From: Arthrobacter sp. Marseille-P9274 | Lineage (GTDB): Bacteria > Actinomycetota > Actinomycetes > Actinomycetales > Micrococcaceae | DNA length: 64,000 nt | Direction of reading: 5' to 3' | NCBI RefSeq assembly: GCF_946892675.1 | Contig: NZ_CAMPOV010000003.1 | Location: forward strand, 558,001-622,000 | Part shown: positions 14,580 through 27,657 of the stretch, piece by piece | How the letters are laid out: the number at the start of each line of letters is the position of its first letter | Numbering within the stretch: the stretch's first letter is position 1 | Position numbers and translations under genes: made by a program | The notes under the pieces: model-generated | Database searches by the model: none | What the model was told of the DNA's origin: nothing | What the model saw: the letters and a program-made list of their open reading frames with translations, nothing else

Positions 14580-16561
14580 GCATCACTGAAGAAACCTCGG
14601 TCATCGCCTGGCCGGAGCCGCAGACCGAAGAAGAGCGGATCGCGTTCTGGGAGGACGCCGCGCGGCGCCTGGAATGGGCCGAGCCGTGGCACACCGCCCA
14701 CTCGGCCACCCCGGTGGATGTCGAGGCGCGCCGGGGTCCGGAGCTGCGCTGGTTCGAGGGCGGCAAGCTCAACGCCGCGGTCAACTGCGCGGACCGGCAC
14801 GTGGCGGCCGGCCGGGGCGACAAGGTGGCGCTGCACTTCGAGGGCGAGCCGGGCGACCGCCGCACGGTGACCTACCGCGAGCTGCAGGAGCTGGTCTCCC
14901 AGGCCGCGAACGCGCTGCAGGGCCTGGGCATCGGCAAGGGCGACCGCGTGGTCGTCTACCTGCCGGTGCTGGTGGAAACCGTGGTCATCACGCTGGCCTG
15001 CGCCCGGATCGGCGCGGTGCACTCGCTGGTCTTCGGCGGGTTCTCGGCGGAGGCGCTGCGCTTCCGCGTCGAGGACACGGGCGCCAAGCTGCTGGTCACC
15101 ACGGACGGCCAGTTCCGCCGCGGGACCGCCGTGCCGGTGAAGGACAACGCGGACGCCGCGGTCTCCGGCGAGAACGCGATCGAGCACGTCCTGGTGCTGC
15201 GCCGCACGGGCAGCGACATCGCCTGGACCGAGGGCCGCGACGTGTGGTGGCACGACGTCGTCGACACCCAGCCGCGCGTCCACGAGGCCGAGGCCTTCGA
15301 CGCCGAGACGCCGCTGTTCATCATGTACACCTCGGGCACCACCGGCCAGCCGAAGGGCCTGGTCCACACCACCGGCGGCTACCTGACGCAAGCCTCGTTC
15401 AGCCACGAGTACCTCTTCTCCAACCCGGACCCGGCGCAGCGCGACGCCGACGTCCACTGGTGCACGGCCGACCTGGCCTGGGTCACCGCGCACACCTACG
15501 AGATCTACGGGCCGCTCTCCAACGGCGTCACGCAGGTCATCTACGAGGGTGTGCCCAACGCGCCGCACCCCGGCCGCCACTTCGAGATCATCCAGCGCTA
15601 CGGCGTCACCAGCTACTACACGGCGCCCACGCTGGTCCGCTCGCTTATGGGCTGGTTCCCCGAGGGCATCCCGGCCGAGTACGACCTCAGCTCCGTCCGC
15701 CTCTGCGGCACGGTGGGCGAGGCCGTGAACCCTGAGGCGTGGCGCTGGCTGCGCACGCAGGTCGGGCGCGATTCGCTGGTACCCGGCCAGCCGTCGTCGG
15801 GCGTTCCCATGGTGGACACCTGGTGGCAGTCCGAAACCGGCGCCACCATCCTTTCGCCGCGCCAGACGGATGCCTCGTTCAAGGCCGGCTGCGCCACCCG
15901 CGCGCTGCCGGGCGTGGCCACGGACATTGTCGACGACGGCGGCGTCCGGGTGGGTGCCAACGTGCAGGGCAACATCGTGGTCACCAGGACCGGCCCCTCG
16001 ATGGCCCGGACCGTGTGGGGCAACCCGGAGCGCTACTTCACCAGCTACTGGGAGAAGTACGCCGCCCAGGGCTGGTTCCTCGCGGGCGACGGCGCGCGCT
16101 TCGATGAGGACGGCGACACTTGGATCCTCGGCCGCACGGACGACGTCATCAACATCTCCGGGCACCGGCTATCCACCATCGAGATCGAGTCCGCCCTGGT
16201 CTCCCACCCCGCCGTGGTGGAGGCCGGCGTGTGCCCGACCTACGACGCGAAGACCGGCCACGCCGCCACCGCCTTCGTGGTGCCGCTCGACAAGTCGCTG
16301 ATCGCCGCCTCGGTCGCCGCGGACCCGACGCCGGAACAGGCGGCGGCGATCGCGGCGCTGCGGGCCCACGTTTCGACCCAGATCGGGCCGATCGCCAAGC
16401 CCCGCGACGTCGTGTTCGTCCCCGACGTGCCGAAGACCCGCAGCGGCAAGATCATGCGCCGGCTGCTTACCCAGCTGTTTGAGGGCACCGCCCTGGGCGA
16501 CACCACCAGCCTGCAGAACGAGCCCTGCATCGCGGACATCAAGCAGATCTGCACCCGCTAG
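14555..16561 (+). CDS. Acetyl-CoA synthetase homologue (AMP-forming acyl-CoA ligase)
   Basis: A protein of up to 668 aa, the normal size for Acs. Seen: VHSLVFGGFSAEALRFRVED, the P-loop-like YTSGTTGQPKGLVH, WCTADLAWVTAHTYEIYGPL, GTVGEAVNPEAW, VDTWWQSETGA, WFLAGDGARFDEDGDTWILGRTDDVINISGHRLST and the C-terminal KTRSGKIMRRLL with the lysine that is acetylated in Acs. The tryptophan of WWQSETG fits an acetate-size pocket. WVTAHTY replaces the usual WVTGHSY, so substrate or CoA handling may differ. The start is uncertain: ATG 14555 overlaps the permease by 25 bp, and ATG 14570 is an alternative. Location in a sulfonate operon suggests activation of the acid left after desulfonation (inference). Confidence 0.85.
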   Translation: MGSKTMGISITEETSVIAWPEPQTEEERIAFWEDAARRLEWAEPWHTAHSATPVDVEARRGPELRWFEGGKLNAAVNCADRHVAAGRGDKVALHFEGEPGDRRTVTYRELQELVSQAANALQGLGIGKGDRVVVYLPVLVETVVITLACARIGAVHSLVFGGFSAEALRFRVEDTGAKLLVTTDGQFRRGTAVPVKDNADAAVSGENAIEHVLVLRRTGSDIAWTEGRDVWWHDVVDTQPRVHEAEAFDAETPLFIMYTSGTTGQPKGLVHTTGGYLTQASFSHEYLFSNPDPAQRDADVHWCTADLAWVTAHTYEIYGPLSNGVTQVIYEGVPNAPHPGRHFEIIQRYGVTSYYTAPTLVRSLMGWFPEGIPAEYDLSSVRLCGTVGEAVNPEAWRWLRTQVGRDSLVPGQPSSGVPMVDTWWQSETGATILSPRQTDASFKAGCATRALPGVATDIVDDGGVRVGANVQGNIVVTRTGPSMARTVWGNPERYFTSYWEKYAAQGWFLAGDGARFDEDGDTWILGRTDDVINISGHRLSTIEIESALVSHPAVVEAGVCPTYDAKTGHAATAFVVPLDKSLIAASVAADPTPEQAAAIAALRAHVSTQIGPIAKPRDVVFVPDVPKTRSGKIMRRLLTQLFEGTALGDTTSLQNEPCIADIKQICTR

Positions 16562-16565
16562 GCCG

Positions 16566-16598
16566 CCGGGTCCGGGCCGCCCGCCCGCCCGGACCCGG
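16566..16598 (+). terminator. Probable terminator after the ssu-acs operon
   Basis: GGGTCCGGGC pairs perfectly with GCCCGGACCC around a 9-base loop, 4 bp after the stop codon. There is no U-tract, which is common for actinobacterial terminators. Confidence 0.5.
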
Positions 16599-16687
16599 CC
16601 CGCGCCCGGCACCTCCCCGCCCGGACCCGAGACCCCGGCACCTCCCCGCCCTCCCCGCCGTCCCGACACCCCTCACTGCCTGCCTCG

Positions 16688-16783
16688 AACTTCCCTCGCT
16701 TCCCATCGGTCCGCCGCAAAAGCGCAGGTCAGCTCAATGCTTGAAGCCTAAAGCAGGAAACGAACGCCAAATCGAGGGAAGTT
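16688..16783. repeat. 96-bp repeat, copy 1 (downstream of the DUF559 gene)
   Basis: Bounded by an 11-bp perfect inverted repeat, AACTTCCCTCG and CGAGGGAAGTT. It aligns end to end with the copy at 17713-17808 in the same orientation. Shared internal blocks include GCAGGTCAG, TGCTTGAAG, CTAAAG and GGAAACGAA. It lies 14 bp beyond the stop codon of the minus-strand gene. Confidence 0.8.
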
Positions 16784-16797
16784 TGTGCCTCTCGTGC

Positions 16798-17700
16798 TCA
16801 GGCTCCGCGGCGGAGCACCGACATGACCTGCGCCAGAACAGCTTGTGGGCGAAACACCACGTCCTCATAGACGTACCGGAGGGTCGGCAGTCCGCTAAGG
16901 ACCCCTTCGTTGTTCCGCCGTCGGTCTTTGCGGAATGCGTCCCGCGTCCAGTGGAAGTCCATGCCGTCAAGCTCCACAATGAGCCGCCCTTCGATGAGCA
17001 GATCCACTCGGCCAAGGCCGCGGATCTCGACCTGTGTCTCCACGCGCAGGCCGGCTGCCCGGAACAGCTCGCGCGCTATGACCTCCAGTGGGGAGTCCGC
17101 ATCCTTCCCTATTCGTTGCACGACGGCTCGGCGTGCCCCGTTTCGTGGACCAGGCAAATGACGTACGAGTTCCGCCTGGCCAACAGCCCCGCGGCGGACA
17201 GCAGACTCGGCAAGGACAAGCGCCTCCAACGGAGGACGGCATCGTAGGGTGTGCAGCACAGCGTCGATGACTGGCACATAGGCACCCGGCAGGCGATCTC
17301 CGACCAAGGCGCTGCGGTGTGTAGTGACCGATTTCGGCAGGCCCCCATGGTCTGACCAGAGATGGAGGCACTCCGGATCCTTGATGGTCCAAAGCCGCAA
17401 CTCCTTTGCCGCTGAGATGCAGGTGATCAGACCGTTGACCTTCAATGCCGTCCGGATTTCCGGTTCCCCGTCGGGGACGCCCGCCAGCCCCCGACGCACT
17501 AGCTGGACTGCCCCCGCTCGGACAGCAGCTTGGATCCTTGAACGGCTGTGGCCCGCCCGCATAAGGTCTGCGTAACGGGCGGTGCCCCCCAGCCGGACGA
17601 CGTCTGCCGCTAGACGTTGGTGGTCTTCCATGGCAGGAGCCTGCCGGAAGCGCTCGGCTGAATCCACCGTCGGCGGCAGTGCTGTGGACAACGCACGCAT
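16798..17700 (-). CDS. DUF559 (Vsr-like PD-(D/E)xK) nuclease-type protein with AbiEi-like N-terminus
   Basis: A 300-aa protein. Residues 27-75 (ADVVRLGGTARYADLMRAG...IQAAVRAGAVQLVRRG) look like the winged-helix N-terminus of type IV antitoxins (AbiEi). The C-terminal 100 residues match the DUF559 family: SPLEVIARELFRAAGL, VDLLIEGRLIVELDG, H250, D254 and DRRRNN, consistent with a Vsr/PD-(D/E)xK active site using D233, E243 and D245. No toxin partner is adjacent. The gene is visibly less GC-rich than its neighbours and is framed at 12 and 14 bp by two 96-bp direct repeats, as in a transferred cassette. Function unknown; nuclease activity is inferred. Met-24 is an alternative start. Confidence 0.75.
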   Translation of the reverse strand: MRALSTALPPTVDSAERFRQAPAMEDHQRLAADVVRLGGTARYADLMRAGHSRSRIQAAVRAGAVQLVRRGLAGVPDGEPEIRTALKVNGLITCISAAKELRLWTIKDPECLHLWSDHGGLPKSVTTHRSALVGDRLPGAYVPVIDAVLHTLRCRPPLEALVLAESAVRRGAVGQAELVRHLPGPRNGARRAVVQRIGKDADSPLEVIARELFRAAGLRVETQVEIRGLGRVDLLIEGRLIVELDGMDFHWTRDAFRKDRRRNNEGVLSGLPTLRYVYEDVVFRPQAVLAQVMSVLRRGA

Positions 17701-17712
17701 CGTGCATCCGCC

Positions 17713-17808
17713 AACCTCCCTCGCTTCCCGACCGTCTCCACTAAACGTGCAGGTCAGAGCGTTGCTTGAAGTCTAAAGATGGAAACGAATGCTTAACCGA
17801 GGGAGGTT
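17713..17808. repeat. 96-bp repeat, copy 2 (upstream of the DUF559 gene)
   Basis: Bounded by an 11-bp perfect inverted repeat, AACCTCCCTCG and CGAGGGAGGTT. Compared with copy 1, one arm base changes T to C and the partner base changes A to G, so pairing is kept. Same length and orientation as copy 1. It lies 12 bp before the start codon of the nuclease gene and may carry its promoter. Confidence 0.8.
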
Positions 17809-17992
17809 CGCCGCACCGCGTTCCTTTGGGCGGCCCTCCAGGCCGGGTGGCCCTTCCGAGGCTGCGGGGAAAGACGCGGGCCGACGGCGGGAGGCCACGA
17901 CGGCCACGGCCGCCCGGCAGCTGTGGAAAACCAGCGGGGACGGCGGCGGCGTTCGGGGAATTCCCGGCGGGACGCAATGCGGCTCAACATTC

Positions 17993-18022
17993 TTGGAGCC
18001 GCGCCGGACAGGCTGGCAGAAT
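17993..18022 (+). promoter_or_regulatory. Promoter of riboswitch E
   Basis: TTGGAG (17993-17998), 18 nt, CAGAAT (18017-18022), ending 6 nt before the first aptamer bases. Confidence 0.5.
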
Positions 18023-18028
18023 AGCAAG

Positions 18029-18126
18029 GACCATCCCGAGCGGCTGAGAGATCTGGCTCTTTGACGCCGCAGCAACCCTCCGGACCTCCCCGTCCCGGAA
18101 AGGTGCTACCGCCAGAAGCGATGGAG
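18029..18126 (+). ncRNA. SAM riboswitch (S-box) E
   Basis: GACCATCCCGAGCGG, GAGAGATCTGG, TTGACGCCGCAGCAACCC, a short P3, AAGGTGCTACCGCCAG, GCGATGGAG. P1 pairs CCATC with GATGG (18120-18124). It precedes the SfnG-like gene with about 118 nt of leader between aptamer and start codon. Confidence 0.88.
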
Positions 18127-18244
18127 AGAGCGCAAGCAATCTTTGATCCGGATGGCGTCGGCCGTTCGGCAGGCGCCTGATGGACCGTCATTACCCGGGA
18201 TTCCCGTTCACGCGCTTTAAGCGCCGACCATCAAGGAATTCGCC
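18127..18244 (+). promoter_or_regulatory. Expression platform of riboswitch E
   Basis: The segment just before the ribosome site (AAGGAA, 18233-18238) contains GCCGACCATC (18223-18232), which repeats the GACCATC of the P1 5' strand. It can pair with GATGGCGTCGGC at 18151-18162, with GATGG at 18179-18183, or with the P1 3' strand itself. Mutually exclusive helices are therefore available. No terminator with a U-run is seen. Confidence 0.4.
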
Positions 18245-19426
18245 ATGAGCACGACCGTCAACACCACCGTGGCCAACCTCGAAACCCCGCTGAAGTTCGC
18301 CTACTGGGTTCCCAACGTCTCCGGCGGCCTCGTCGTCTCCACGATCGAGCAGCGCACCAGCTGGGACTTCGACTACAACAAGAAGCTCGCCCGCATCGCG
18401 GAGAACTCCGGCTTCGAGTACGCCCTGACCCAGACCCGCTACGCCGCCAGCTACGGCGCGGACAAGCAGCATGAGGCCACCAGCTTCTCGCTCGCCCTGC
18501 TCGGCGCCACCGAGCGGCTCAACGTCATCTCCGCCGTCCACCCGGGCATGTGGCACCCCGGCGTCCTCGCCAAGTTCATCATCACCGCGGACCACATCTC
18601 CGGCGGCCGCGCCGCAGTGAACATCGTGTCCGGGTGGCTGAAAGACGAGTTCGTCAACTTCGGCCTCGAATGGCTCGAGCATGACGAGCGCTACGTCCGT
18701 ACCGAAGAGTTCATCAACGTGCTCCGCGGCCTGTGGACCCAGCAGAACTACAGCCAGTCCGGCAAGTACTACAACATCAAGGACTTCACTCTGAACCCGG
18801 CTCCGGTGGACGTCCCGGGCCGCGCCCATCCGGAGATCTTCTTCGGCGGCAATTCCACCGCCGCCCAGGCCGCCGCCGGCCGCACCGCGGACTGGTACTT
18901 CTCCAACGGCAAGGACCTCGAGGGCTTCAAGGACAACATCGCCGGAGTCCGCGCCGCCGCTGCCACCGTCAACCGCACCCCGAAATTCGGCCTCAACGGC
19001 TTCGTCATCGCCCGCGGCACCGAGGCGGAAGCCAGGGACACCCTCCGCGAGATCGTCGAGAAGGCGCACCGCCCCGCCGTCGAAGGTTTTGCCGCCGCGG
19101 TCAAGGAAGCCGGCCAGTCCACCCGGGACGGCAAGGGCATGTGGGCGGATTCTACGTTCGAGGACCTCATCCAGTACAACGACGGCTTCAAGACCGGACT
19201 CATTGGTACACCCGAGCAGATCGCCGAACGTATTGTTGAGTTCAAGAAGATCGGCGTGAACCTCATGCTGACCGCCTACCTGCACTTCCAGGAGGAAGTC
19301 GAGGCGTTCGGCCGCGACGTACTGCCGATCGTCCGCGAACTCGAGGCGGATCTCGCACGCGCCAACGGCACCGAGCTCAACACGGCGCTGCTGCCCGCCA
19401 CCAACTTCGAAGGAGCTGCCCTCTAA
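18245..19426 (+). CDS. sfnG: SfnG-like dimethylsulfone monooxygenase (FMNH2-dependent)
   Basis: A 393-aa luciferase-fold monooxygenase. The N-terminal FAYWVPNVSGGLVVSTIEQRT, YALTQTRY, HPGMWHPGVLAKFIITAD, GRAAVNIVSGWLKDEF and PEIFFGGNSTAAQ blocks match SfnG and close alkanesulfonate monooxygenases (SsuD). SfnG converts dimethylsulfone to methanesulfinate, feeding sulfite production. The ATG is supported by AAGGAA 6 nt upstream. It is immediately followed, with no gap, by metY; this and the shared SAM riboswitch tie C-S cleavage to homocysteine synthesis. An SsuD-type activity on other sulfonates cannot be excluded. Confidence 0.85.
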   Translation: MSTTVNTTVANLETPLKFAYWVPNVSGGLVVSTIEQRTSWDFDYNKKLARIAENSGFEYALTQTRYAASYGADKQHEATSFSLALLGATERLNVISAVHPGMWHPGVLAKFIITADHISGGRAAVNIVSGWLKDEFVNFGLEWLEHDERYVRTEEFINVLRGLWTQQNYSQSGKYYNIKDFTLNPAPVDVPGRAHPEIFFGGNSTAAQAAAGRTADWYFSNGKDLEGFKDNIAGVRAAAATVNRTPKFGLNGFVIARGTEAEARDTLREIVEKAHRPAVEGFAAAVKEAGQSTRDGKGMWADSTFEDLIQYNDGFKTGLIGTPEQIAERIVEFKKIGVNLMLTAYLHFQEEVEAFGRDVLPIVRELEADLARANGTELNTALLPATNFEGAAL

Positions 19427-24500: not shown

Positions 24501-27427
24501 GCGGCCCCGGCAACGACCGCATCGAGGGCAACGACGGCGCCGACACCGCACTGGGTGGCGTGGGCAACGACATCATCACCGACATGGCCGGCGACGACGT
24601 CCACAAGGGCGGCCCGGGCAACGACGCCATCGACTCCGGTCCCGGCCTCGACATCGTGCTCGGCGGCGACGGCCACGACCTGCAGAACGGCGGCCTCAAC
24701 ACCAACGAGCACTTCGCCGGCAACGGGGATGATCTCATCATCGCAGGCAGCGGCGCGGACACCGTCTTCGCCGACTCCGGTGACGACTGGATCGAAGGCG
24801 GTGACGGGGCCGACCTGCTGCAAGGCGATTCCGGCGCACCCTTCTTCGATGATCCCAACAAGCCCGGCCATGACGTGATCAGCGGCCAGAACGGCGACGA
24901 CGACTACGACGCCGAGGGCGGCGACGACATCATGCTCGCCGGCCCCGGCATCGAACGCAACGCCGGTGCGGCAGGCTTCGACTGGACCAGTTACCAACTG
25001 GATCCCATCGCGGCCGACTCTGACCTGGACCTGAGGCTGCTGGGCGTTCCGCTTCCCGTGGACGTCCTCCGCGACCGCCACGGAGAGGTTGAAGCCTCCT
25101 CGGGCGGCGCCAAGAACGACATCCTCCGCGGAGACAGCATCGTTCCGCGCCTGGCTGTCGCAGAAGGAGCCTCCGGCAGCAACTGGCTGGATGAAGCCGG
25201 CGTGAACCGCATCGCCGGCCTGCGCCAGCTGCTCCCGGCCGGCGCCGCCACCGGCGACTCCGTCTGGGGTGAAGGCAACATCATCCTCGGCGGTGCCGGA
25301 AGCGACACCCTCGAGGGCCGCGGCGCGGACGATATCCTGGACGGCGACAAGTACCTGAACGTGCGGCTGAGCGTGCGCACGGACCGGAATGATGCCGCCA
25401 CCGAGATCGGTTCCGCCACCTCGCTGTCCAAGCCGTACCTGGCCGGCAGCACGGAAACGCTGCAGCAGGCGGTCTTCGCCGGCAAGGTGGATCCGGGCAA
25501 TATCGTCGTCGACCGGGAGATTCTCGACGGCGGCGCCTCAGGGGGCACGGACGTCGCGGTGTTCTCCGACATCCAGGCGAACTACACCGTCACCACCACG
25601 CCCGCAGGTGCCGCCCTCGGCGCTCCCGGCAGCGTCACCACTGTGACCCATAACGACGGCGGCGACGCCGGCGACGATGGCGCGGTCACCGGCGACGGAA
25701 CGGACACCCTGCGCAACGTCGAGAAGCTCATCTTCGCGGACACCCAGGCGCCGGCCGCCCCGACGGCTGTCACCGCCACGGGCGCCAACGCCTCGGCGAT
25801 CGTGACGTGGTCTGCTCCGGCCGGCTCCTCGATCACGGGATTCGACGTCCTGGTCGCAGACGCGCAGGGCAACCAGGTCGGCCTGCTCCGGCCCGCCGAT
25901 GCAGCCGCAACCTCGCTGCTCGTGGACGGCCTGGCCAACGGAACGGCCTACCGCTTCCAGGTACGCGCGGTGAACGAGGTCGGGCCCGGTCCGTACTCCG
26001 CCCTCAGCGCGGCCGTCACCCCGGCTCCGGTTGCACCCGGCGCCCCGGCCATCGCGTCGGTTACCGGTGGCGACCTGCAGGCAACCGTGAACTGGACCGC
26101 GCCTGCGGACAACGGCGGCTCGGCCCTGACCGGCTTCGCGGTCCGGGTGATCGACGCGGCCAACAACCAGGTCGGCGACCTGCGCACGGCAGCCGCCGGC
26201 GCAACCAGCCTGGTGGTCACCGACCTGCCGGCCGGCAGCCCGGTCCGTTTCCAGGTCGCCGCGGTCAATGGGATCGGCCAGGGAACCTTCTCGGCCGCAT
26301 CGGACGCCGTGACTCCGGTGGAGACCGTCGCCCCGAGCATCTCGGACCGGACACCTGCGGCGGCAGCCACGGGCGTCCGCCGGGACTCCAACATCGCGGT
26401 GACCTTCAACGAACCGGTCAGCGGCATCAGCGGAACCACGCTAGTGCTGCGCAACGCGGTCACCGAGGAGATCGTCGAGGCCACGGTCAGCTATGACCAG
26501 ACGACCATGACGGCGCTGCTGGATCCCGCCGCCGACCTGCGCGGCGGCACCCAGTACCGGGTGACAGTGAGCGGAGGCGCCGCGGCAGTCCGCGACACCT
26601 TCGACAACGCCCTGGGCTCCGACAGCTGGACCTTCACCACGGAGAACGGGCTGGCCAAGACGGTCGACTTCACCGGTGACGGCGATGCGGACGTGGTAGC
26701 CCGGGACGGCCAGGGCCGGCTCTGGCTCTACCCCGGCAACGGCACCGGCGGACTGGACGCGCGGACACTGATGGGCCGCAGCGGCTGGAACGCGATGTCC
26801 GCCATCACCAGCACCGGTGACTTCGACGGCGACGGCACTGCCGACGTCATCGCCAAGGACCGGGTGGGCACCGGACAGCTCTGGCTCTACCCGGGCAACG
26901 GCACCGGCGGACTCGAACCCCGGGTCCTGCTCGGCCGAAGCGGCTGGAACGCCATGAACACCCTGTTCAGCGGCGGCGACATGAACGGCGACGGCGACAC
27001 GGACCTCATGGCCCGTGACGGCAACGGCCGGCTGTGGACCTACCCGGGCACTGGCGCGGGCCGGCTCCAGGCTCGGATCCTCACCGGTTCCAGCGGCTGG
27101 AATTCCATCACCAGCCTGCTGAGCGCCGGGGATTCCGACGGCGACGGCACCACCGATGTCCTGGCCCGGACCAGCGACGGACGGCTCTGGCTCTACCCAG
27201 GCGCTGGCAATGCCCGGCTCGGTAGCCGCAGCCAGATGGGCACCGGCTGGAATACCATGCGGGCCATCTTCAGCCCGGGCGACCTCAGCGGCAACGGCAC
27301 TTCCGACGTCGTCGCGAGCCACTCGGACGGGCGCCTGCTGCTCTACCCGGGCAACGGGACCGGCGGCCTGCAGGCCGCCCGGGTCATCGGCACCAGCGGC
27401 TGGACGGCGATGAGCATCCTGTTCTAG
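21572..27427 (+). CDS. Giant secreted haem peroxidase with RTX, FN3, Ig-like and FG-GAP repeats
   Basis: A 1951-aa secreted protein. Order: signal peptide (residues about 30-65, ending AGPAHA); animal-type haem peroxidase domain (about 150-900) with distal His 268 in FGQFFDHGLDL, an EHNRLVDD motif near 530 and proximal His 624 in YRFGHSML; RTX-like GGxGNDxI calcium-binding repeats (about 955-1130); two fibronectin type III domains (about 1393-1480, 1488-1575); a Big_5/SbsA-type Ig-like domain (about 1585-1690); and five FG-GAP-like repeats of the DGDGxxDVxAxxxxGxLWLYPG pattern to the end. ATG 21572 is chosen for AAGGGG 7 nt upstream. Bacterial relatives oxidise halides or phenolics; the substrate here is unknown. 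It is a single-gene unit between two terminators. Confidence 0.9.
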   Translation: MFTHRTKGKRADARGRRVSDRDSSRPDTGRKNSRAGSRGVASALALVLTTSLGLPALAGPAHAVVGQGFTVTPADLAFILKQIKISEAHVANTTSATGPCGALLGNGANQVPGALVSYGLRTVDGTCNNLQQDRQDYGAANKAFPRLTEPQFRTAEDSQSPRVQASADPGYAAKTDVWDSQPRVISNLIVDQTSTNPAAVDAAAFPVRSQGGESIVPCTTQPTETEPGAPEGCVPAGETLFIPNITTDVGLSPPYNGLFTLFGQFFDHGLDLVSKSGGTVYVPLKDDDPLIPGRDGQLGTADDLPPQLRFMAVTRATNQPGPDGQMGTADDIQEATNRTNPYVDQSQTYASHPAHQVFLRTYTANTEGKPVSTGELLTSADGGMGTWELLKKQAAERLGLRLVDADVLGIPMILTDPYGKFVPGPERGLPQYVTPTGLVEGNLADPVPAPANVERVSEAFLDDIAHNAAPNPGLAPDPDTTFTPATARQAAGTYDDEMLNRHFVAGDGRVNENIGLSMIHQIFHSEHNRLVDDIQRVLTEDAAASSRGAAALEEWKLAAGAEGWNGERLFQAARFVTEMEYQHLAFEEFARKVQPLVEPFSGYHDDVDPAITAEFAHAVYRFGHSMLTDTISRTNADGSANDISLLDGFLNPLAYDDGGTAGDLDSHQAAGAIAMGMSNQVGNELDEFVTDTLRSNLLGLPLDLAAINLARARETGVPSLNNLRKQLHGSTNDSQLAPYKNWTDFGLNIKHPESLVNFVAAYGTHETITSKTALADKRAAAQLLVDPPIGTPAESIPADAEDFMTASGTWAAKATGLDEVDLWIGGLAERTNLFGGLLGSTFNYVFEKQMTDLQNGDRFYYLVRTPGMNLFSQLEGNSFAEMIMRNTTAHSMTADAFSTADCKFQLGNLAGTGSSVADDAGSECNETELLIRMPDGTIRYRTTNSVDPAGINGQSVFNGTDATDRSWGGVDNDTFWGGPGNDRIEGNDGADTALGGVGNDIITDMAGDDVHKGGPGNDAIDSGPGLDIVLGGDGHDLQNGGLNTNEHFAGNGDDLIIAGSGADTVFADSGDDWIEGGDGADLLQGDSGAPFFDDPNKPGHDVISGQNGDDDYDAEGGDDIMLAGPGIERNAGAAGFDWTSYQLDPIAADSDLDLRLLGVPLPVDVLRDRHGEVEASSGGAKNDILRGDSIVPRLAVAEGASGSNWLDEAGVNRIAGLRQLLPAGAATGDSVWGEGNIILGGAGSDTLEGRGADDILDGDKYLNVRLSVRTDRNDAATEIGSATSLSKPYLAGSTETLQQAVFAGKVDPGNIVVDREILDGGASGGTDVAVFSDIQANYTVTTTPAGAALGAPGSVTTVTHNDGGDAGDDGAVTGDGTDTLRNVEKLIFADTQAPAAPTAVTATGANASAIVTWSAPAGSSITGFDVLVADAQGNQVGLLRPADAAATSLLVDGLANGTAYRFQVRAVNEVGPGPYSALSAAVTPAPVAPGAPAIASVTGGDLQATVNWTAPADNGGSALTGFAVRVIDAANNQVGDLRTAAAGATSLVVTDLPAGSPVRFQVAAVNGIGQGTFSAASDAVTPVETVAPSISDRTPAAAATGVRRDSNIAVTFNEPVSGISGTTLVLRNAVTEEIVEATVSYDQTTMTALLDPAADLRGGTQYRVTVSGGAAAVRDTFDNALGSDSWTFTTENGLAKTVDFTGDGDADVVARDGQGRLWLYPGNGTGGLDARTLMGRSGWNAMSAITSTGDFDGDGTADVIAKDRVGTGQLWLYPGNGTGGLEPRVLLGRSGWNAMNTLFSGGDMNGDGDTDLMARDGNGRLWTYPGTGAGRLQARILTGSSGWNSITSLLSAGDSDGDGTTDVLARTSDGRLWLYPGAGNARLGSRSQMGTGWNTMRAIFSPGDLSGNGTSDVVASHSDGRLLLYPGNGTGGLQAARVIGTSGWTAMSILF

Positions 27428-27479: not shown

Positions 27480-27657
27480 CTGCAAGGCCGCGGCACTGTA
27501 CAGCATCGACCCCTCCTGTACTCCTTTAGCCTTCAATCATCGCGCTGACCTGGGCGTTTAAAAAGCTTGAAGAAAGCTGTGCAGAATGGCGGGCTCCGGC
27601 CCCTCCGCTAGCCCGCGGCCCCCTCCTAGCACTGGCCGGTCGGCGCGGGCTGCCTCT
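27480..27657. other. Intergenic stretch without recognised gene
   Basis: No convincing coding sequence, RNA gene or repeat is seen. An AT-richer patch (TTTAAAAAGCTTGAAG) near 27558 stands out from the local composition, without a clear promoter layout. Confidence 0.4.

Follow-up and report, generated by a model that had tools for sequence, protein, structure and literature searches.

The window (the whole 64,000-nucleotide stretch of Arthrobacter sp. Marseille-P9274 DNA that was analysed) contains a gene for a DUF559/MTES_1575-type nuclease lying between two repeats (Table 1). An earlier note on this DNA had claimed that two 96-bp repeats in the same orientation flank the gene, that each carries perfect 11-bp terminal inverted repeats, and that the single difference between the arms (T-A in one element, C-G in the other) is compensated; all of this was borne out. 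The two elements are 75% identical across a 101-bp alignment. The gaps that the note gave, 14 bp to the stop codon and 12 bp to the first ATG, were measured correctly, but the probable start codon is at 17631, which leaves 81 bp between the repeat and the start. This start is preferred because similarity to the closest relatives begins at M24 and because residues 1 to 20 are poorly predicted in the structural model.

By eye, the neighbouring genes were named as an acetyl-CoA-synthetase-like gene (acs) and an LLM-type oxidoreductase gene behind a SAM riboswitch (18028-18127, + strand; 54.7 bits against a gathering threshold of 44.4). In an Rfam scan of 16500-18300 the SAM riboswitch alone passed, and neither repeat matched any family. 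The description of the cassette as splitting a sulfur regulon was loose: the LLM gene does have a SAM riboswitch, but the other neighbour is acetyl-CoA-synthetase-like. Likewise, the region is less GC-rich than the acs side (0.70-0.73), whereas the other flank is just as low (0.64-0.66).

Table 1. Features of the repeat-flanked nuclease gene and its elements in the window.
Feature	Position	Strand	Remarks
Element 1, stop side of gene	16688..16783	+	96 bp; covariance match 16679-16790, 93.9 bits
Element 1 5' arm, inverted motif copy	16688..16701	+	alignment columns 13-26
Element 1 conserved core GCAGGTCAG	16724..16732	+	columns invariant or near-invariant in the 27-element alignment
Element 1 motif copy X1, direct	16749..16763	+	from motif-copy offset comparison
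Element 1 motif copy X2, direct, 20 bp past X1	16769..16783	+	from motif-copy offset comparison
DUF559/MTES_1575-type nuclease gene	16798..17700	-	300 aa from first ATG; 277 aa from probable start 17631
Element 2, start side of gene	17713..17808	+	96 bp; covariance match 17704-17815, 91.3 bits
Element 2 motif copy X1	17774..17788	+	from motif-copy offset comparison
Element 2 motif copy X2	17794..17808	+	from motif-copy offset comparison
Third, solo element in window	27487..27595	-	covariance match 81.9 bits; 60 bp beyond the 1977-aa ORF ending at 27427

The window protein matched the Pfam families MTES_1575 and DUF559 below the cut-off and AbiEi_4 weakly, also below it, and no other family; the Pfam search found no known transposase and no IS200/IS605-like HUH tyrosine transposase. 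PADLOC gave weak AbiEi-type matches only, and NCBIfam gave none. MTES_1575 is named as a Vsr-type REase-fold domain in a passage of PMC3710099, and EDxHD enzymes are described in part of PMC3943268. An AlphaFold model made with 39 sequences had a mean pLDDT of 88.3, with residues 1-20 poor. The best Foldseek match of the model was the AbiEi antitoxin 6y8q (E 2.7e-4), the sole match under 0.001, and the catalytic domain of I-Bth0305I (3r3p) matched with a TM score of 0.73 by target length, probability 1.00 and E 5.7e-3. Further matches were Rv2827c (1zel), Vsr (1cw0, probability 0.99) and TnsA (1t0f). The gene product is therefore predicted, from the model, to be an AbiEi-like winged-helix domain together with a Vsr/EDxHD-fold nuclease. 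D233, E243, D245, H250 and D259 are invariant both across 21 aligned sequences, hand-picked and with L046 excluded for its stop codons, and across 39, and these are candidate catalytic residues; H250 lies within a low-confidence stretch (residues 249-251, pLDDT < 50).

BLASTN of the window repeat revealed additional copies in its own genome. As a DNA query the repeat picked up a small number of copies in relatives and had no match beyond the genus, and we therefore compared left flanks of the genes with right flanks, as described below. Within the genus, a covariance model was built from 27 copies of 112 bases, which came from seven genomes, gave a nearly gapless alignment and were picked by the central core, not by the arms. 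In the window's genome the covariance search returned 19 matches, which fall at 18 places, so that the family is dispersed, and the search found matches in all ten genus genomes. The relatives had 19 (G009), 12 (G008), 9 (G005), 7 (G006), 5 (G004), 4 (G007), 3 (G002), 3 (G003) and 2 (G001) matches, some of these being one place matched on both strands. In 49 other genomes the search gave three matches, all weak (G016, two; G036, one). Doublets or triplets with 100-200 bp spacing account for several of the copies in the window's genome; the pair that flanks the gene is ~1 kb apart. The repeat proved neither confined to the locus nor without a link to DUF559: copies are dispersed and the association with DUF559 genes is strong, although solo copies do adjoin unrelated genes. 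Five G009 contig ends (L303, L304, L305, L306 and L307) also fall within elements; we rejected recent identical copies there, as the element sequences differ, and the ends look as if palindromes had halted sequencing or assembly.

Pairing and periodicity were analysed in the 27-copy alignment. RNAalifold found almost no structure over the 27 copies, and pairing was therefore counted in named helices. In the outer stem (columns 13-26 with 95-108), 73.5% of the cells are in standard pairs compared with 29-44% when the arms are slid, and the covariation score is 0.362 compared with 0.045-0.150. Neither this score nor the 58 cells with both sides changed was reached in any of 500 shuffles. Two-sided change affects 11 of the 14 outer-stem pairs, a count no higher than chance, as 267 of the 500 shuffles reached it. 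The 5' arm also pairs with the nearer 3' site, X1 (59.2% vs 27-43% slid), with weaker support, since the covariation score was reached in 12 of 500 shuffles and the number of two-sided pairs in 477. X1 and X2 share an identity of 0.573 at offset 20, compared with 0.198-0.331 at 12 other offsets (14 to 26). When rows were shuffled, the offset-20 identity averaged 0.498 and peaked at 0.549 in 1000 trials; in the variable columns alone the observed identity was 0.457 vs 0.370 shuffled, a value reached in 2 of 2000. The three motif copies are mostly conserved and vary together in part. Each element of the genus thus appears, from the alignment, to be one ~14-bp motif present three times, once inverted and twice direct with 20 bp between the two. 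With a 20-bp period the two direct sites face almost the same side of the helix; we therefore suspect a protein that reads duplex DNA.

The earlier note had also proposed structured RNA flanks. On such a reading the protein would bind or cut elements that are transcribed as hairpins. The outer stem does co-vary; moreover, many elements of genus g45 have an inner hairpin, and of the 24 matches to CGTGTC-N3-12-GACACG found across 60 regions, 22 lie at most 500 bp from the gene. However, the 5' arm has two possible partners on the 3' side, the direct repeats are in 20-bp phase, the orientations of pair and gene vary among relatives, and no Rfam family matches. The structured-RNA proposal is thus not supported, and we consider it very improbable. 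Because either of two 3' sites can pair with the 5' arm and the direct repeats stand 20 bp apart, the rows of motifs suggest predicted DNA-binding sites rather than a single RNA fold.

The same locus was then compared among nine genus relatives. The DUF559 gene adjoins acs in seven of the nine, and in six of those seven the LLM gene lies on its other side. At this locus G001 lacks both the gene and the repeat, with ~120 bp from the acs stop codon to the riboswitch. In G009 the locus is unassembled, broken on both sides inside partial repeats, and no protein of the family was found in this genome despite its 19 covariance matches. G008 and G005 carry a different repeat subtype on both sides, with the copies mutually inverted, and their DUF559 gene is on the acs strand, whereas the window gene is on the opposite strand. 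In G002, G003, G004 and G007 one of the two sides carries an element that matches weakly, and in G006 related sequence was discerned by eye only. Between the window genome and G008, the LLM and acs proteins are 98% and 99% identical but the DUF559 proteins only 56%, and the DUF559 proteins of G008 and G005 are 91% identical; the simplest reading of these identities is that the cassette may have been replaced at a fixed site.

Empty sites were also found. At one intergenic site the window genome has three elements, and the same site in G008 has none, with flanks 94-95% identical. Across ~315 kb aligned between the two genomes there are 25 inserted or replaced segments of at least 45 bp, of which only three, the DUF559 locus included, hold elements with the core pattern; one more holds a diverged element recognised by eye. 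A short glutaredoxin-like gene (named by eye) has an element on either side in G312 and on neither side in G318, where the gene is also present. The element downstream of it in G312 is flanked by 18-bp copies, one letter different from each other, of a sequence that occurs once in G318. At the equivalent place in G206, two elements bracket ~4 kb instead (L116 9455-13593, genus g45; methyltransferase-like, sensor-kinase-like and response-regulator-like ORFs by eye). From the G206 case, elements may delimit exchangeable segments. A palindrome, TTGAGTTGGCAGG...CCTGCCAACTCAA, at L126 11541-11648 is missing from L113 and stands between 16-bp direct copies; it is not linked to a DUF559 gene. These two insertions (16 bp and 18 bp) were the only ones with flanking duplications, none being clear in the other pairs of filled and empty sites that were viewed.

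Palindromic indels at L123, L110, L144 and L140 were rejected as elements, and by eye look like terminators or other sequence. A comparison of G008:C1 with G000:C1 (own 168104-168275 of the joined stretch) showed different long, perfect-looking palindromes in the same gap between convergent genes, which would be another family, perhaps terminators.

The gene could instead encode an AbiEi-like repressor that regulates itself, in which case the start-side element would be its operator, the other copies would be regulatory and the nuclease part would serve, e.g., in defence. The AbiEi antitoxin is the best fold match, and a passage of PMC7319586 describes AbiEi and Rv2827c as binding their own promoters at inverted repeats. 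Autoregulation leaves unexplained the stop-side copy, the solo copies, the empty sites and the cassette swap, and no toxin gene stands beside the DUF559 gene at the window locus; an AbiEii/DUF1814 toxin gene was absent beside the DUF559 gene in the window and in six relatives, where the neighbours are acs and LLM. We regard autoregulation as improbable.

We then examined the wider bacterial family. A profile of the protein matched 247 of 395 genomes at E <= 1e-15, many with several copies; six candidates were scored per genome, so that absence from this survey is no proof of absence. Named relatives with the gene include Arthrobacter, Pseudarthrobacter, Paenarthrobacter and Sinomonas. In the flank test, the best local score between the 450 bp on either side of the gene was compared with that of control intervals shifted within the same regions. 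The 60 regions, one per genome, were hand-picked from strong matches, so that weak members of the family are not represented among them. A score of at least 40 was reached in 36 of the 60 relatives compared with 8 of 476 control intervals, and a score of at least 60 in 24 of the 60 compared with one of the 476. When the proteins were clustered at 70% identity, the cluster median passed the flank test in 17 of 27 clusters. In an overlapping named set, which took 43 of 54 named loci, a flank pair was found in 17 of the 43 and in 3 of 250 controls.

A flank pair at score 40 was undetected in 24 of the 60 relatives, and 12 of the 60 had no 11-mer shared between the flanks. The second family member in the window genome (L017; 39% identical) has no flank pair, scoring 26. 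Of the six paralogues in G016, five are flanked by pairs with scores of at least 46, and every pair is different in sequence. The elements of many relatives are ~95-107 bp long with clade-specific outer arms, and the pairs aligned best in direct orientation in 29 of 36, with inverted pairs in G005 and G008.

Other arrangements were seen as well. Loci of genus g9 (L111, L123, L134, L137 and L139) have flanks with several GGACATGCCCA-like motifs, not one 100-bp palindrome, and at L123 these motifs form a tandem row with ~33-bp spacing. At L046 (G016), a DUF559 relative with stop codons lies between two identical 23-bp perfect palindromes, 57-80 bp to the left and 47-70 bp to the right of the match.

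The partnership of gene and repeat was analysed in 83 of 87 loci, an open frame and a short motif being required. Flank similarity had a median of 44 within a gene and of 25-26 between genes with less than 50% protein identity; above 70% protein identity, shared neighbours add to flank similarity. Between non-syntenic loci, higher protein identity goes with more similar arms (rho 0.215; maximum 0.172 in 1000 permutations; 870 non-independent pairs from 45 genes with a clear palindrome). By these comparisons enzyme and repeat co-evolve, if modestly. The repeat that flanks the G206 gene matched 13 times in G206; of 36 congeners, two had a single match, one of them being G269, whose protein is 78% identical. 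Three of the 11 solo copies in G206 lie less than 20 kb from the gene (binomial P 0.0002). The repeat beside the G361 gene matched six times at four places in G361, always on the contig that carries the gene, and once in a single one of 36 congeners. Both are near-identity searches that miss diverged copies; G312 scored zero in the search with the G206 repeat and holds two related-looking elements.

These data also bear on whether the gene is a passenger, i.e. whether a REP/BIME-like family is moved by other means and the DUF559 gene was caught between its copies by homologous recombination and then inherited. Elements do occur without the gene as solos, doublets and triplets, they bracket another gene in G312 and a 4-kb segment in G206, and G009 is rich in elements with the gene not found. 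A passenger would not be expected to be one and the same protein family bracketed by many unrelated-looking repeats, with repeats that track the protein clade at other loci and, in the two cases tested (G206 and G361), are multicopy in the gene-bearing genome. We consider the passenger explanation unlikely, though less so than autoregulation.

The best explanation, in which we have slightly better than even confidence, is a unit like REP/RAYT that is built on an unrelated nuclease. The AbiEi-type winged helix would bind the ~14-bp motif, three copies of which are present in each ~100-bp element, and the Vsr/EDxHD-fold part would nick or cut at the bound motif. Repair or recombination would then spread solo elements to intergenic sites, and whole [element-gene-element] cassettes would move, invert or replace one another. 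The earlier suggestion of a compact repeat-gene-repeat unit resembling REP/RAYT finds support in the dispersed copies, the repeat-free orthologous sites, the gene-specific repeats and the family-wide association. Comparison of genomes establishes the bracketing and its frequency, the dispersal, the empty sites, the joint variation of the motif copies and the cassette replacement; from these we infer that the nuclease may bind and cut the elements and drive their movement. Weighing most against it are the 24 relatives among the 60 in which no pair was detected, the case of G009, and the few target duplications.

More tentatively, and at somewhat less than an even chance, these may be undescribed one-gene mobile units, common in Arthrobacter and its relatives, in which the nuclease reads and co-evolves with its own element, spreads solo copies both locally and genome-wide and swaps cassettes at fixed intergenic sites, and which would be an independent invention of the REP/RAYT kind. 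No role has been assigned to the common DUF559/MTES_1575 proteins; if each reads its adjoining repeat, the family gains one. Such pairs of protein and site would also be a natural panel for how DNA-cutting specificity changes.

Several known systems resemble the unit in part. With AbiE type IV toxin-antitoxin systems (AbiEi, Rv2827c; part of PMC7319586) it shares the N-terminal fold, as seen in 6y8q and 1zel, and such proteins bind inverted repeats; unlike AbiE, a C-terminal nuclease replaces the antitoxicity domain, and no toxin gene adjoins at the window locus. The EDxHD homing endonuclease I-Bth0305I, as described in part of PMC3943268, has the same nuclease fold, and here too a version is replaced at a fixed site. 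Unlike I-Bth0305I, the window gene is bracketed by dispersed repeats, encodes an AbiEi-type domain and lies outside any intron. Homing into a gene-free allele is compatible, in either direction, with the gene-free site in G001 and the observed cassette replacement. REP/BIME palindromes dispersed in an Arthrobacter genome, like the window elements, are reported in a passage of PMC12306157 that names no enzyme partner; searches of that paper for 'nuclease' and 'RAYT' found no such partner. In the literature searched, mainly open-access, no description of an association between DUF559 genes and repeats was found.

The closest comparison is with REP/RAYT, described in a passage of PMC2817692 as a one-gene unit flanked by dispersed palindromes with which it co-varies. 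In both, a small nuclease gene lies between two palindromic repeats, the repeats are dispersed in the genomes that hold the gene (the exception here being G009, where repeats are dispersed and the gene was not found), and repeat and enzyme vary together. Unlike RAYT, which is an HUH tyrosine transposase, the enzyme would be an AbiEi winged helix with a Vsr-fold nuclease. The elements are ~95-112 bp long, with three motif copies in the genus of the window, whereas REP sequences are 20-40 bp (part of PMC3733652). The pair is direct in the window and best aligned as direct in most relatives with a pair, whereas RAYT genes always lie between inverted REPs, according to the same passage of PMC2817692. 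With another fold, longer elements and mostly direct pairs, the unit is not a member of REP/RAYT, although it works like one; if each nuclease reads its adjoining repeat, dispersed palindromes would arise in bacteria by two known routes instead of one.
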